In this document: positions 40,728 to 44,639 of the stretch, in pieces | Layout: the number at the start of each line of letters is the position of its first letter | Numbering within the stretch: position 1 is the stretch's first letter | Assembly: GCA_018064645.1 (NCBI GenBank) | Contig: JAGHUT010000008.1 | Coordinates: 1 to 63,911 of the forward strand | Length of the DNA stretch: 63,911 bases | Direction of reading: 5' to 3' | DNA from: Candidatus Crickella merdequi | Lineage (GTDB): Bacteria > Bacillota > Clostridia > Peptostreptococcales > Anaerovoracaceae | Notes under the pieces: generated by a model | Told to the model about the DNA's origin: nothing | What the model saw: only the letters and a program-made list of their open reading frames with translations | Databases searched by the model: none | Made by a program: the position numbers and the translations under genes

Positions 40728-41258
40728 TTAGAAATCTATTTCGAACTCAGACTTCCATAGCACAACTTCTCCCTGTGCTCTTGTCTTGTTCATGTCAATA
40801 ACGCGCTGGTTCTCTGACCCCCTGTATAGAAGTGTAAGATTCCTCTCTTCTTCGATAAATCTGCCGTCCACCAGGATATCAAGGAGTCCAAGAAGCTCAT
40901 CAGTATCCGCATCACCTCTCGCCTGCAGTTCCTCAAGGGTGTAACCTGAATAGCTCATCAGGCTGAGTCCATCAGACTTGAGCATCTTAGCAAGTGCAAG
41001 CAGTGGCTTGACTTGTGTAAAAGGCTCGCCCCCCGAGAAAGTCACTCCAGCCAGATACGGATTGCTTCTTATTTCGTCATACAGTTTCTGCACGCCCAGG
41101 TCATATCCATCTTCATAACTATGTGACTGAGGATTGTGGCAACCCGGGCACTTGTGCGGGCAACCCTGCACGAAGACCACGTATCTGAATCCCGGTCCAT
41201 CGACAATGGATTCAGGCTCAATACCACACATTCTCAGAATCATGTCTTTGTCACTCAT
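40728..41258 (-). CDS. nrdG: Anaerobic ribonucleotide reductase activating protein
   Basis: This radical SAM enzyme generates the glycyl radical on NrdD. The 176-aa protein carries the cluster motif C33-x3-C37-x2-C40 (CPHKCPGCHNP) and the SAM motif FSGGEPF near residue 93. It is small, as usual for NrdG. It lies about 720 bases from nrdD, with a nitroreductase and a terminator in between, so it is not in the NrdR-controlled transcript. Confidence 0.93.
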   Translation of the reverse strand: MSDKDMILRMCGIEPESIVDGPGFRYVVFVQGCPHKCPGCHNPQSHSYEDGYDLGVQKLYDEIRSNPYLAGVTFSGGEPFTQVKPLLALAKMLKSDGLSLMSYSGYTLEELQARGDADTDELLGLLDILVDGRFIEEERNLTLLYRGSENQRVIDMNKTRAQGEVVLWKSEFEIDF

Positions 41259-41271
41259 CTGCTATCTCCAG

Positions 41272-41844
41272 TTATCTGTCCCACTTCTCGAACATTACGA
41301 TTTCCTCAAGATCTCTTCGAGGTCTCGCATCTGGTGTCTCATCACCATATCCGAGTGTGATAATTGCTACTACATATTTATCATCAGGTATTCCGAGAAT
41401 CGGCTTCACATCTGCCTGATGATACCAGCCTGTCCAGCAGGTGCTGAGACCTACTGACTCTGCTGCAAGAAGAATATTCTCAACAGATGCAGCTGTATCT
41501 CTGATGGCCCTCTTAAGCGCCATTGTCGGATTTTTCTCATCGCAGACAAGCTCATCTCCTTCAAAAATCTCACCATATGTCTGTGCCTTCTGGTCTGCCA
41601 CACAAATGATAAATACCGGTGCTGCGCACATCCATTCCTGTCCGTGGTCGGCCTCTGCGATTGCCCTCTTAGTTGCCTCGTCTCTGACAATGATATACCA
41701 CCATGGCTGTCTGTTATGGCCGCTTGGGGCCTGTCTTCCTGCCTCGAGGATTGTCATCAGCTTGTCATCCTCAACTGGCATGTCCTTATATCTGCGAACA
41801 CTTCTTCTATCTGCTATGTTCTTAAGTATTTCGTTATTAATCAT
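41272..41844 (-). CDS. Nitroreductase-family flavoprotein
   Basis: The start at 41844 (AAGAAGGG upstream) gives 190 aa. The FMN-binding pattern RRSVRRYKDMPV near residue 13, APSGHNRQPWWYI near 40 and the C-terminal PRRDLEEIV fit the NfsA/FRP-type nitroreductase fold. The substrate (nitro compound, quinone or other) is unknown. nrdG follows after 13 bases. Confidence 0.88.
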   Translation of the reverse strand: MINNEILKNIADRRSVRRYKDMPVEDDKLMTILEAGRQAPSGHNRQPWWYIIVRDEATKRAIAEADHGQEWMCAAPVFIICVADQKAQTYGEIFEGDELVCDEKNPTMALKRAIRDTAASVENILLAAESVGLSTCWTGWYHQADVKPILGIPDDKYVVAIITLGYGDETPDARPRRDLEEIVMFEKWDR

Positions 41845-41926
41845 TTGTTTCGTACCCTTCTTTAGCGCGTACTTTCGCATTCTCATACATAGTTATTATA
41901 CCATAAGTCGAAGGTCAACACTCTAC

Positions 41927-41955
41927 AAAAAAATCGCCCTCTTTCGAGGGCGACC
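41927..41955 (-). terminator. Intrinsic terminator after the nrdD unit
   Basis: CGCCCTC and GAGGGCG (41935-41952) form the stem, and the minus strand continues into seven T. It ends the nrdD plus small glycyl-domain transcript. Confidence 0.9.
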
Positions 41956-41977: not shown

Positions 41978-42142
41978 CTACCTTGTGAGGCTGTGCTTTA
42001 CTCTATCCTCTACCTCAGCTCTCTTACCATTATTGAATCTATCAAGTGTTCCTACGAGATATCCTGTAATTCTTCTGATTCTCTCGAAATCAACACCTTC
42101 TCCAACCTGTCCGTTTACGTTCTTAACTGTTCCGTTGTTCAT
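41978..42142 (-). CDS. 54-aa glycyl-radical domain of NrdD, separate frame
   Basis: This short protein aligns with the extreme C-terminus of class III ribonucleotide reductases: residues 21-37 read RIRRITGYLVGTLDRFN, then GKRAEVEDRVKH. In one-piece NrdD the matching segment (R-x-C/T-G-Y-L ... RVKH) holds the radical glycine; here that is Gly27. The upstream NrdD stops before this segment. The start ATG at 42142 has a strong GGAGG seven bases upstream, and only 21 bases separate it from the nrdD stop. It is in the same frame as nrdD (7 codons plus stop apart). It probably docks on NrdD to carry the radical, as YfiD can for pyruvate formate-lyase. Confidence 0.85.
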   Translation of the reverse strand: MNNGTVKNVNGQVGEGVDFERIRRITGYLVGTLDRFNNGKRAEVEDRVKHSLTR

Positions 42143-42163
42143 GGTAGTACCTCCTTCATTGAA

Positions 42164-44440
42164 TTAGTGAGTGCAGTCGCAAGGAACTGGTACGCTTGGA
42201 TACTTCATTCTAAGCTCGTTGAGTCTCTCTACAGAAACTGCCTCTCCAGCTCTTCTTCCGCAACGTGGACATACATCATCGATAACGCCTGTGTAACCGC
42301 AAACAGGATCTCTGTCTACAGGGTGGTTAACTGAACCGTAACCGATTCCGCATTCCTTCATATATCTGATAACAGACTCGAAAGCCTGTGGATTCTTGCT
42401 TGTATCTCCGTCAAGCTCTACGTAACTGATATGTCCTGCATTAGTCAGCTCATGATATGGAGCCTCGATTGCAATCTTCTCAAATGCGCTGATTGGATAG
42501 TATACAGGTACGTGGAATGAGTTAGTATAGTAAGCTCTCTCTGTTACTCCATCAATCTTACCATATTTTGCTCTATCAATCTTGACAAATCTTCCAGAAA
42601 GACCTTCTGCCGGTGTAGCAAGAAGTGTGAAGTTAAGTCCTGTCTCCTCTGACTTCTTGTCGCAGAAATCTCTCATGTGCTTGATAATCTCGTAAGCAAG
42701 CTTTCTTGACTCTTCGCTCTCTCCGTGGTGCTTGCCTGTAAGAGCCTTCATTGTCTCAGCAAGACCGATGAATCCGATTGAAAGAGTTCCATGCTTGATG
42801 ATCTCACCAACGCTATCGTCTGGACCAAGCTCATCTGAGTCAATCCAGATTCCCTGACCCATAAGGAATGGATAATTTCTTCCTCTCTTTGTGCTCTGAA
42901 TCTTGAATCTGTGAAGCAGCTGTCTTGATACAAGCTCCATCATGTTATCAAGCTTCTTATAGAAAACATCAAAGTCTCTGTTAGCTTCGATTCCAATTCT
43001 TGGAAGGTTGATTGAAGTGAATGAGAGGTTACCTCTTCCGCATGTCTGCGCCTTGCTTGGGTCATAGTGGTTAGCCATTACTCTTGTACGGCATCCCATG
43101 TATGCAACCTCTGTATTATAATCGCCTTCCTTATAGAACTTCAGATTGAATGGTGCATCGATGAAGCTGAAGTTAGGGAAGAGTCTCTTAGCACTGCTTC
43201 TGATTGCAAGCTTGAAAAGATCATAGTTTGGCTCTCCCTCGTTGAAGTTGATGCCTTCCTTAACCTTAAAAATCTGTACAGGGAATATTGGTGTCTCTCC
43301 GTTGCCAAGACCTGCCTCTGTAGCAAGAAGCATGTTCTTGATTACCATTCTTCCTTCTGGAGTTGTATCAGTTCCGTAGTTAACTGAACTGAATGGAACC
43401 TGAGCACCAGCTCTTGAATTCATTGTGTTCAGGTTATGAATGAGAGCCTCCATAGCCTGATAAGTCAGCTTATCTGTGTTAGCGTAAGCCGCCTCCTGTG
43501 CCTGTCTATTGCATGAAACGAGCAGTTCTCTTGTCATTCCGAAAGTCTCATCGGCCTGGTCATACCACTTGCCAAGTTCCTCTCCGAAAGTAAGTGCTGT
43601 TGAGATTGTAGGCTTTGTTGCCTCCTTCTTAATCTTGTCAGCAATTGTCTTAGCCTCTGCATATGATGTATCAAGCTTAACTGCGAGAATCTCGCAGAGA
43701 GCTGAGTAGTACTCCTTGATGTATGTTCTTGCTACACCAGGAGCCATTGAATAATCGAAGTTAGGAACCGACTGACCGCCGTGCATCTCGTTCTGGTTAG
43801 CCTGAATAGCAATACATGCAAGTGAAGCATAGCTCATGATTGACTGTGGCTCTCTCAGGTAACCGTGACCTGTGCAGAATCCATCCTTGAAGAGCTTGAT
43901 GAGATCAATCTGGCAGCATGTCTTAGTGAGCATGTAGAAATCCTTATCGTGGATATGAATATCACCATTAATATGAGCCTTAGCGATATCCTTAGGAAGT
44001 ACGTAATTGTCTACATAGTATTTAGCTCCCTCAGAACCATACTTGAGCATTGTTCCCATTGATGTGTCACCATCAATATTGGCATTCTCTCTCTTGATAT
44101 CTGCATCCTTTGAATATGAATATGTCAGCTCATTGTAGATGTTCATGAGATCTGACTCAGCCTCTCTGATCTTAGCGTGCTCAGCACGATAAAGGATGTA
44201 CGCCTTAGCAGTCTTCTCATAGTCATATCTGATGAGGATAGCCTCAACAAGGTCCTGTACCTGCTCAACTGTGCATGTCTCTCCATCAAGGAGTGAAACA
44301 ACCTTCTTTGTCAGATACTCGAAGTCAAAGCTCTCCATCTTCTCGCCATCAACAGCTGCATTTGCAGCAAAAATGGCATTAAAAATCTTGGATTCATCAA
44401 ATGCTACTTCGTTTCCGTCTCTCTTAATAATGGTCTTCAT
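42164..44440 (-). CDS. nrdD: Anaerobic ribonucleoside-triphosphate reductase, large part
   Basis: It reduces NTPs to dNTPs without oxygen. The 758-aa chain starts with an ATP-cone (IKRDGNEVAFDESKI), followed by the reductase core (HINGDIHIHDKDFY near 175, TCGRGNLSFTSINLPR near 465). A C-terminal zinc-ribbon-like region has C714, C724 and C727 (CGYTGV, CPRCGRR) with more cysteines at 754 and 756. The chain ends there, without the glycyl-radical R-x-TGYL segment, which is on the next gene. The transcript is under two NrdR boxes and a strong promoter. Confidence 0.95.
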   Translation of the reverse strand: MKTIIKRDGNEVAFDESKIFNAIFAANAAVDGEKMESFDFEYLTKKVVSLLDGETCTVEQVQDLVEAILIRYDYEKTAKAYILYRAEHAKIREAESDLMNIYNELTYSYSKDADIKRENANIDGDTSMGTMLKYGSEGAKYYVDNYVLPKDIAKAHINGDIHIHDKDFYMLTKTCCQIDLIKLFKDGFCTGHGYLREPQSIMSYASLACIAIQANQNEMHGGQSVPNFDYSMAPGVARTYIKEYYSALCEILAVKLDTSYAEAKTIADKIKKEATKPTISTALTFGEELGKWYDQADETFGMTRELLVSCNRQAQEAAYANTDKLTYQAMEALIHNLNTMNSRAGAQVPFSSVNYGTDTTPEGRMVIKNMLLATEAGLGNGETPIFPVQIFKVKEGINFNEGEPNYDLFKLAIRSSAKRLFPNFSFIDAPFNLKFYKEGDYNTEVAYMGCRTRVMANHYDPSKAQTCGRGNLSFTSINLPRIGIEANRDFDVFYKKLDNMMELVSRQLLHRFKIQSTKRGRNYPFLMGQGIWIDSDELGPDDSVGEIIKHGTLSIGFIGLAETMKALTGKHHGESEESRKLAYEIIKHMRDFCDKKSEETGLNFTLLATPAEGLSGRFVKIDRAKYGKIDGVTERAYYTNSFHVPVYYPISAFEKIAIEAPYHELTNAGHISYVELDGDTSKNPQAFESVIRYMKECGIGYGSVNHPVDRDPVCGYTGVIDDVCPRCGRRAGEAVSVERLNELRMKYPSVPVPCDCTH

Positions 44441-44532: not shown

Positions 44533-44639
44533 ATTGTATATGAGAGGGATATAGGTGTCAATAAAAAAAGGTCGTTTTTCTCAAGAAAAACACTATATGT
44601 AGTTGTTGCTTAACACCCCTCTAACACTACATATAGTGG
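44533..44639 (-). promoter_or_regulatory. nrdD promoter with two NrdR boxes
   Basis: On the minus strand TTGACA (44556-44561) and TACAAT (44533-44538) have a 17-base spacer. Upstream are two NrdR-type boxes, 44590-44605 (ACACTATATGTAGTTG) and 44624-44639 (ACACTACATATAGTGG), 34 bases apart start to start, about three helical turns. NrdR should repress when dATP/ATP is high. The region from 44441 to 44532 is an AT-rich leader without another recognised site. Confidence 0.85.

Follow-up and report, generated by a model that had tools for sequence, protein, structure and literature searches.

Class III ribonucleotide reductases (NrdD), as exemplified by the P. copri enzyme (8P23) and by 9D3X (probably the S. 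thermophilus enzyme of PMC12662201), combine an ATP-cone, a barrel and an MGC finger-loop cysteine with a partner, NrdG, and have their glycyl-radical segment placed C-terminally on one and the same chain. For 8P23, the accessible sections of PMC11226230 give Cys416 as the finger-loop cysteine and Gly711 as the radical site, with chain and paper numbering differing by 4. Separate glycyl-radical parts have been described for pyruvate formate-lyase (PFL), where YfiD/GrcA binds the cleaved enzyme, is activated there by PFL activase and restores turnover (PMC8683613 and PMC12338860, in their accessible text). A phage precedent comes from T4, which codes for Y06I (PMC8683613, accessible text); the T4 frame vs.6, presumably the same gene, has a Gly_radical match according to the available part of PMC1524935. 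As far as the open portion of Andorfer et al. 2021 (PMC8683613) goes, YfiD and Y06I, both serving PFL, are the only validated spare parts, and parts for other glycyl radical enzymes are considered possible. Reductases in two chains exist as the split class II enzyme NrdJa/NrdJb, which is a cobalamin enzyme, and phage nrdD genes in pieces have been described that mostly owe their splits to inserted introns, inteins and homing endonucleases (accessible parts of PMC3653736 and PMC2988022). The nearest hint to the arrangement reported here is found in a Jug-phage preprint, the available text of which gives an nrdD in four fragments and no sign that the piece of 230 residues is spliced to that of 91 (PMC12363816). 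In the partly accessible literature that we searched, mostly outside subscription journals, we recognised no description of a separate NrdD glycyl-radical protein, cellular or viral.

The window (the whole stretch of 63,911 nucleotides from Candidatus Crickella merdequi that was analysed) has the NrdD glycyl-radical segment in a gene of its own. The nrdD core (42164..44440, on the minus strand, as are the small gene, the two codons, the post-zinc tail, nrdG, the promoter-like site and the hairpin described below) codes for 758 aa with ATP-cone, class III barrel and zinc region; it ends in ...CPRCGRRAGEAVSVERLNELRMKYPSVPVPCDCTH and contains no RITGYL, which bears out the sequence-only reading of this DNA that the protein ends after its zinc region without a glycyl-radical segment. 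On the same strand, a small gene (41978..42142) codes for a 54-aa protein, MNNGTVKNVNGQVGEGVDFERIRRITGYLVGTLDRFNNGKRAEVEDRVKHSLTR, with the RITGYL also seen in the radical segment of 8P23 and with RVKH at residues 47-50. Its ATG lies 21 nt past the TAA stop of nrdD, both frames are in the same register, and a Shine-Dalgarno sequence read as AAGGAGGT (42149..42156) precedes it, the GGAGG of which ends 7 nt before the ATG; the earlier description of this frame holds in each of these details.

The Pfam NRDD profile (PF13597, 562 positions) is divided between the two proteins, with positions 1-531 on residues 118-731 of the core (behind an ATP-cone, PF03477, at residues 3-89) and positions 533-562 on the small protein (E 2e-8), so that the pairing is not a matter of chance. 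NCBIfam models divide in the same way, with TIGR02487 scoring 581 bits on the core at a cut-off of 326, and the PFL-type Gly_radical profile PF01228 does not match the small protein at E <= 1. Searched against the sequences of solved structures with both frames joined, the best relative is the P. copri NrdD 8P23, to which the core aligns as far as residue 704 and the small part at 707-738. The phmmer alignment places Gly27 of the small protein (codon at 42062..42064) on the TGY glycine of 8P23, its radical glycine, while the MGCRTRV motif of the core brings Cys450 (codon at 43091..43093), the predicted thiyl-radical cysteine, onto finger-loop Cys416; this cysteine is invariant in 23 aligned rows. 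The glycine is invariant in all 150 distinct small segments, partly by construction since the contig scan used RIRRITGYL and the script was anchored on the preceding residues, and a single segment, from the broken phage frame L359, was left unanchored in this count. The zinc region, in which we looked for a four-cysteine site, has three obvious cysteines (714, 724 and 727), the same three as the one-piece relatives in our alignment; the region that had been called cysteine-rich is thus present, its wealth in cysteines modest.

Beyond the small gene, at a distance of 0.7 kb, lies nrdG, the gene of the radical-SAM activase (40728..41258; TIGR02491 NrdG above cut-off), and the frame between them (41272-41886) is one that we take to be nitroreductase-like. 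A promoter-like TTGACA-17-TACAAT upstream of nrdD (44533..44561, 11 of 12 matches) and a terminator-like hairpin with T run directly 3' of the small gene (41932..41955) fit the expectation for a two-gene unit; promoter-like matches are not in excess in the region (4, shuffle mean 5.4), and terminator-like ones are not much above shuffles (3, mean 1.6). Further upstream of nrdD there are two near-palindromes about 33 nt apart, aacactatatgtagtt (44589-44604) and aacactacatatagtgg (around 44623-44639), which resemble paired NrdR boxes.

Where one-piece relatives have their glycyl-radical segment, the core bears another post-zinc tail (42167..42253), which aligns with GFERIRRITGYL of those relatives. 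The tail reads CGR...VGFERIRRITGYLVGT or similar in one-piece relatives and CGRREGEGVSVEKL or similar in split cores (CGRRAGEAVSVERLNELRMKYPSVP in the window), with a start of the EGE[GA]V type common among the latter, and from this alignment the split-core tail looks like a decayed copy of the radical segment that has lost its glycine loop. As the small proteins carry GEGV.FERIRRITGYL, tail and small protein may have originated from one duplicated domain. When the later part of the tail (as LRKKYP) is cast as a regular expression, it matches 36 of 67 distinct split cores versus none of 44 others, so that the general part of the tail is its first part. Split cores of the Butyricicoccus type (L298, L300, L310, L329, L331) end in a longer tail of another kind (as LGLYKxLNxxTLGYHGDPxEExDRxPNP), which may be a further decayed version of the radical domain.

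We consider it very likely that the NrdD of the window is an obligatorily two-component class III ribonucleotide reductase. This reading is based on genetic evidence, namely gene anatomy, conservation, phase-independence, selection and the fact that no other reductase was detected in most good genomes of the genus. The 758-aa core would supply ATP-cone, barrel, finger-loop Cys450 and zinc region, and the 54-aa protein would, by analogy, dock in the NrdD barrel at the ordinary site of the C-terminal domain. There, NrdG would set the radical in trans on Gly27 of the docked protein, which would hand it to Cys450 at each turnover. The arrangement probably originated when a free-standing radical protein was acquired, or the domain duplicated, and the domain of the core then decayed. 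GrcA/YfiD and Y06I are alike in that a small glycyl-radical protein is expected, again by analogy, to be activated on a core without usable glycine and to act together with it, but they are PFL-type, whereas the part in the window is NrdD-type (PF13597), has 54 aa and is devoid of an N-terminal half. Furthermore, GrcA backs up an enzyme with its own glycine loop, while cores of the window's genus have no such loop and their part looks obligatory. The comparison with GrcA/YfiD offered by the sequence-only reading is therefore kept for the mechanism, as an analogy, and given up for the spare role in this genus; spare-like forms occur among relatives, where longer free-standing NrdD-type proteins resemble the GrcA-like backup layout in their arrangement. 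The likeness to NrdJa/NrdJb ends with the division into two chains, and unlike the phage genes in pieces the locus in the window is broken between zinc region and radical loop and contains no insert.

The genus of the window is Mogibacterium-like, and genomes with a completeness of at least 90% and a contamination of at most 5% are called good here (the window genome is 92% complete). The small gene is present in 41 of 47 genus genomes, including all 18 good ones, and the six misses are 59-86% complete; in all 26 genus loci that we read with a core (one, L181, being cut), it is a separate gene. Across the 18 good genomes, the core match stops at profile position 531 (in G211 the core is in pieces), the segment forms its own match, and no NrdD with the segment inside the core match is listed. 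The barrel of class I/II reductases (PF02867) finds no match in 17 of these 18, the window genome included; G196 has one, as has, in partial form, G213 outside the 18 (7% contamination). The split NrdD is thus apparently the only reductase detected in most good genus genomes, such statements of absence being limited by the incompleteness of metagenome-assembled genomes (MAGs). Relatives with a one-piece NrdD, named beforehand as a finding that would speak against two components, were not seen among the 47 genus genomes, since all small-protein matches lie in frames of at most 107 aa, and the window genome shows no second NrdD match. With the synonymous sites of the 25 genus rows near saturation, dN/dS is around 0.06 for the small gene and around 0.05 for the core. 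Most genus loci read, with L185 as an exception, also have nrdG close to the pair. Several Mogibacterium sp. MAGs, chiefly from sheep and goat gut, are among the closest named contigs, and one locus (L178, G197:C11) has a small glycyl-radical gene on both sides of its split core (6001 and 8707 of the locus).

These genomes also bear on the strongest of the other readings, in which the small protein serves for repair and the core draws on another radical source during normal growth. A repair function would fit the coexistence of free-standing radical proteins with a full-profile NrdD, seen in 47 of the 57 family genomes with such proteins, but the split core itself lacks a glycyl-radical segment, its tail is devoid of a GYL loop, and 17 of the 18 good genus genomes have neither another NrdD nor a class I/II match. 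We hold this explanation to be improbable.

To see whether core and small protein are translated separately, we compared loci of the window's genus and family as well as loci on named genome contigs. They yield 81 distinct pairs of core and small frame, with identical pairs dropped, cores cut by a contig end uncounted, and L043 (an assembly-gap artefact), L249 and L277 (core about 2 kb off) and the phage locus L359 (small frame broken) included. The small frame is in phase 0, 1 or 2 relative to the core in 29, 29 and 23 pairs, respectively, at a gap of 1 to 2253 nt (median 64), and core stops are TAA in 41, TAG in 27 and TGA in 13. With the best-scoring start chosen, 79 of the 81 small genes start with ATG and 79 have a Shine-Dalgarno sequence with 5 or 6 of 6 matches; in a control that fixes a single ATG for each small gene and also covers the lone ones, at least 5 matches are found in 182 of 261 compared to 26% of shuffled upstreams. 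Readthrough of the nrdD TAA stop into a one-piece NrdD, raised as an alternative by the sequence-only reading, has in its favour that the frames of the window share one register and are separated by a single stop, and that its geometry is possible in 15 of the 81 pairs (the window and the artefactual L043 among them). Yet phase or extra stops forbid it in the other 66, and the strong Shine-Dalgarno sequence together with the ATG start in 79 pairs also speaks against it, which makes this explanation highly improbable. That a one-piece gene on its way to a pseudogene was broken by a nonsense mutation, or was misassembled, is conceivable for a single MAG contig but can practically be dismissed given the same layout in the 26 genus loci that hold a core, a core match ending at 531 in all 18 good genus genomes, dN/dS of about 0.05-0.06 and 17 of these 18 genomes without class I/II match. 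The separately translated glycyl-radical subunit favoured by the sequence-only reading is accordingly supported by genus-conserved pairs, variable phases and gaps, Shine-Dalgarno sequences, purifying selection and the 17 of 18 genomes without class I/II match. The loci of one family genome, G118 (L043, L126, L393), were rejected as split since runs of N at the break mark an assembly artefact; they were kept in the 81 pairs and the first tree, and L126 was left out of the second tree.

Split pairs are not confined to the window's genus. In a second genus of the same family that also has the pair, PF02867 is partially matched in 3 of 4 genomes, and the two matches that were looked at are class II by Pfam. 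The family sample (179 of 197 genomes with NRDD match) contains nine genomes with the adjacent split pair and six with a truncated core, and other NrdD types in this family (L104, L111, L114, L116, L117, L119, L121) have long C-terminal extensions that are thioredoxin- or glutaredoxin-like by eye. Across a sample of the class (89 genomes, 82 with NRDD match, G254 showing a weak partial match only), no split form was seen besides the window, and a few cores were in pieces. G257 of this sample was discarded as a split candidate, its segment following in the same frame after an insertion of around 100 residues between zinc region and radical segment (L390, G257:C144). Scanning genome contigs with an alignment of the small protein gave at least 595 stretches, and the best 80 comprise 53 split pairs, 20 lone small frames (L281 counted among them, its core being cut by the contig end) and 7 one-piece NrdD, counts biased towards split forms by the small-protein query. 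The expectation that such small genes would be found beside nrdD in other anaerobic Firmicutes was right, and they also occur in MAG records named Anaerobiospirillum, Desulfovibrio and Fibrobacter and in viral contigs.

Among 12 genomes reached via named loci (completeness not given), 11 have a split NrdD. Six of these, namely the cultured Massiliimalia timonensis (one NrdD, split, and no PF02867 match), Acutalibacter, Bacilli, Anaerobiospirillum, Fibrobacter and a Mogibacterium MAG (seemingly G169 again), show neither another NrdD nor a PF02867 match; the remaining five comprise three with a second NrdD and two with a class I/II match. A tree calculated from 110 distinct cores, segment columns excluded, requires 5 changes of the split label, of which starred branches force at least 4, and 4 changes of the truncated label; the search was quick, several branches are long, and a change may stand for a gain or a loss. 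The first tree places the window in a group of 39 split rows including near-copies (support 99), which takes in a Desulfovibrio MAG record, and an Anaerobiospirillum record joins this group at support 83. With no case besides the window in the class sample, nine genomes in the family and 5 changes on the tree, split NrdD is, as judged from these sequences, rare but recurrent and has arisen or been lost several times.

The family also has free-standing radical proteins. By hand count of frames under 200 aa, a small frame of its own is present in the 57 family genomes mentioned above, a number that excludes split pairs, G118, and also G100 and G137 with cores running off the contig. In 47 of them a further NRDD match extends to the profile end, meaning that an ordinary segment is present too; in five (G017, G041, G053, G145, G191; 73-92% complete) the lone part is the only NRDD match, perhaps due to genome incompleteness, or else because the part has no core there. 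No core was found near the lone part in the 24 family loci fetched. The lone parts in these loci are mostly 91-102 aa long (75 in L042, interrupted in L102), with about 50 residues (as KITGNA..EAQAYVDYLEKKYNRKLESLDI..DGDYADLNYKF) ahead of an NrdD-type segment. A similar free-standing family exists in Ruminococcus-type genomes, and the model of one member suggests, with moderate confidence, a beta-alpha-beta-beta N-terminal domain (pLDDT 64-81 per block over residues 1-60), with an unreliable radical domain (pLDDT under 50). In G318, a complete NrdD is followed after 41 nt by a free-standing radical protein with its own Shine-Dalgarno sequence.

The six truncated cores of the family (three genomes of g83 and one each of g6, g78 and g69) end in ERIPRL, ERIPRL, QRLDIR, MIPGEAANAN, RILP or ITGYPVGGMESLQ; such truncated cores stop a few residues before the glycine, near the expected product of oxygen cleavage. 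A lone part is found elsewhere in all six genomes, and it is likely that the truncated cores depend on this unlinked part. They are not sole enzymes, since four of these genomes have a class I/II match and two a complete second NrdD. Strong constraint in one pair of truncated cores (G083/G170; pN 0.029, pS 0.716) argues against pseudogenes.

Small frames of this kind are abundant in viral DNA as well. An IMG/VR scan with the small protein of the window gave 291 related stretches, the best 80 of which comprise 75 lone small frames (74 plus L211), 3 pairs of core and small frame and 2 one-piece genes, and no core lies beside the 75 lone frames in DNA of up to 6 kb on each side; prophage or host DNA may be among these contigs. 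Two to five small copies occur in several genomes of the window's genus. The extra copies have neighbours in common on the same strand, the most frequent one being present in 13 of 19 loci, and one copy, in L169, has a terminase large subunit in its neighbourhood, which makes it probable that they are prophages. In Eggerthella phage EL753P1 (L359, 2610-6158), where the annotation reads hypothetical, the nrdD frame ends without radical segment, and a small NrdD-type frame around 0.4-0.5 kb downstream is interrupted inside the motif with its halves in different frames; this break may be a sequencing error, a mutation or recoding.

We see about an even chance that the cellular proteins (mostly 91-102 aa with their added beta-alpha-beta-beta domain) and the viral ones (around 44-150 residues) are exchangeable radical cartridges for NrdD that repair the oxygen-cleaved enzyme or supply infected cells, in the manner of YfiD and T4 Y06I for PFL; the enzyme of the window would then be the end point, its cartridge turned into an obligatory subunit. 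Natural NrdD cores without radical loop, some of them with a cognate part, make intermolecular glycyl-to-thiyl radical transfer in a reductase directly testable with natural proteins, and radical parts for NrdD would explain many tiny frames in gut viral contigs.
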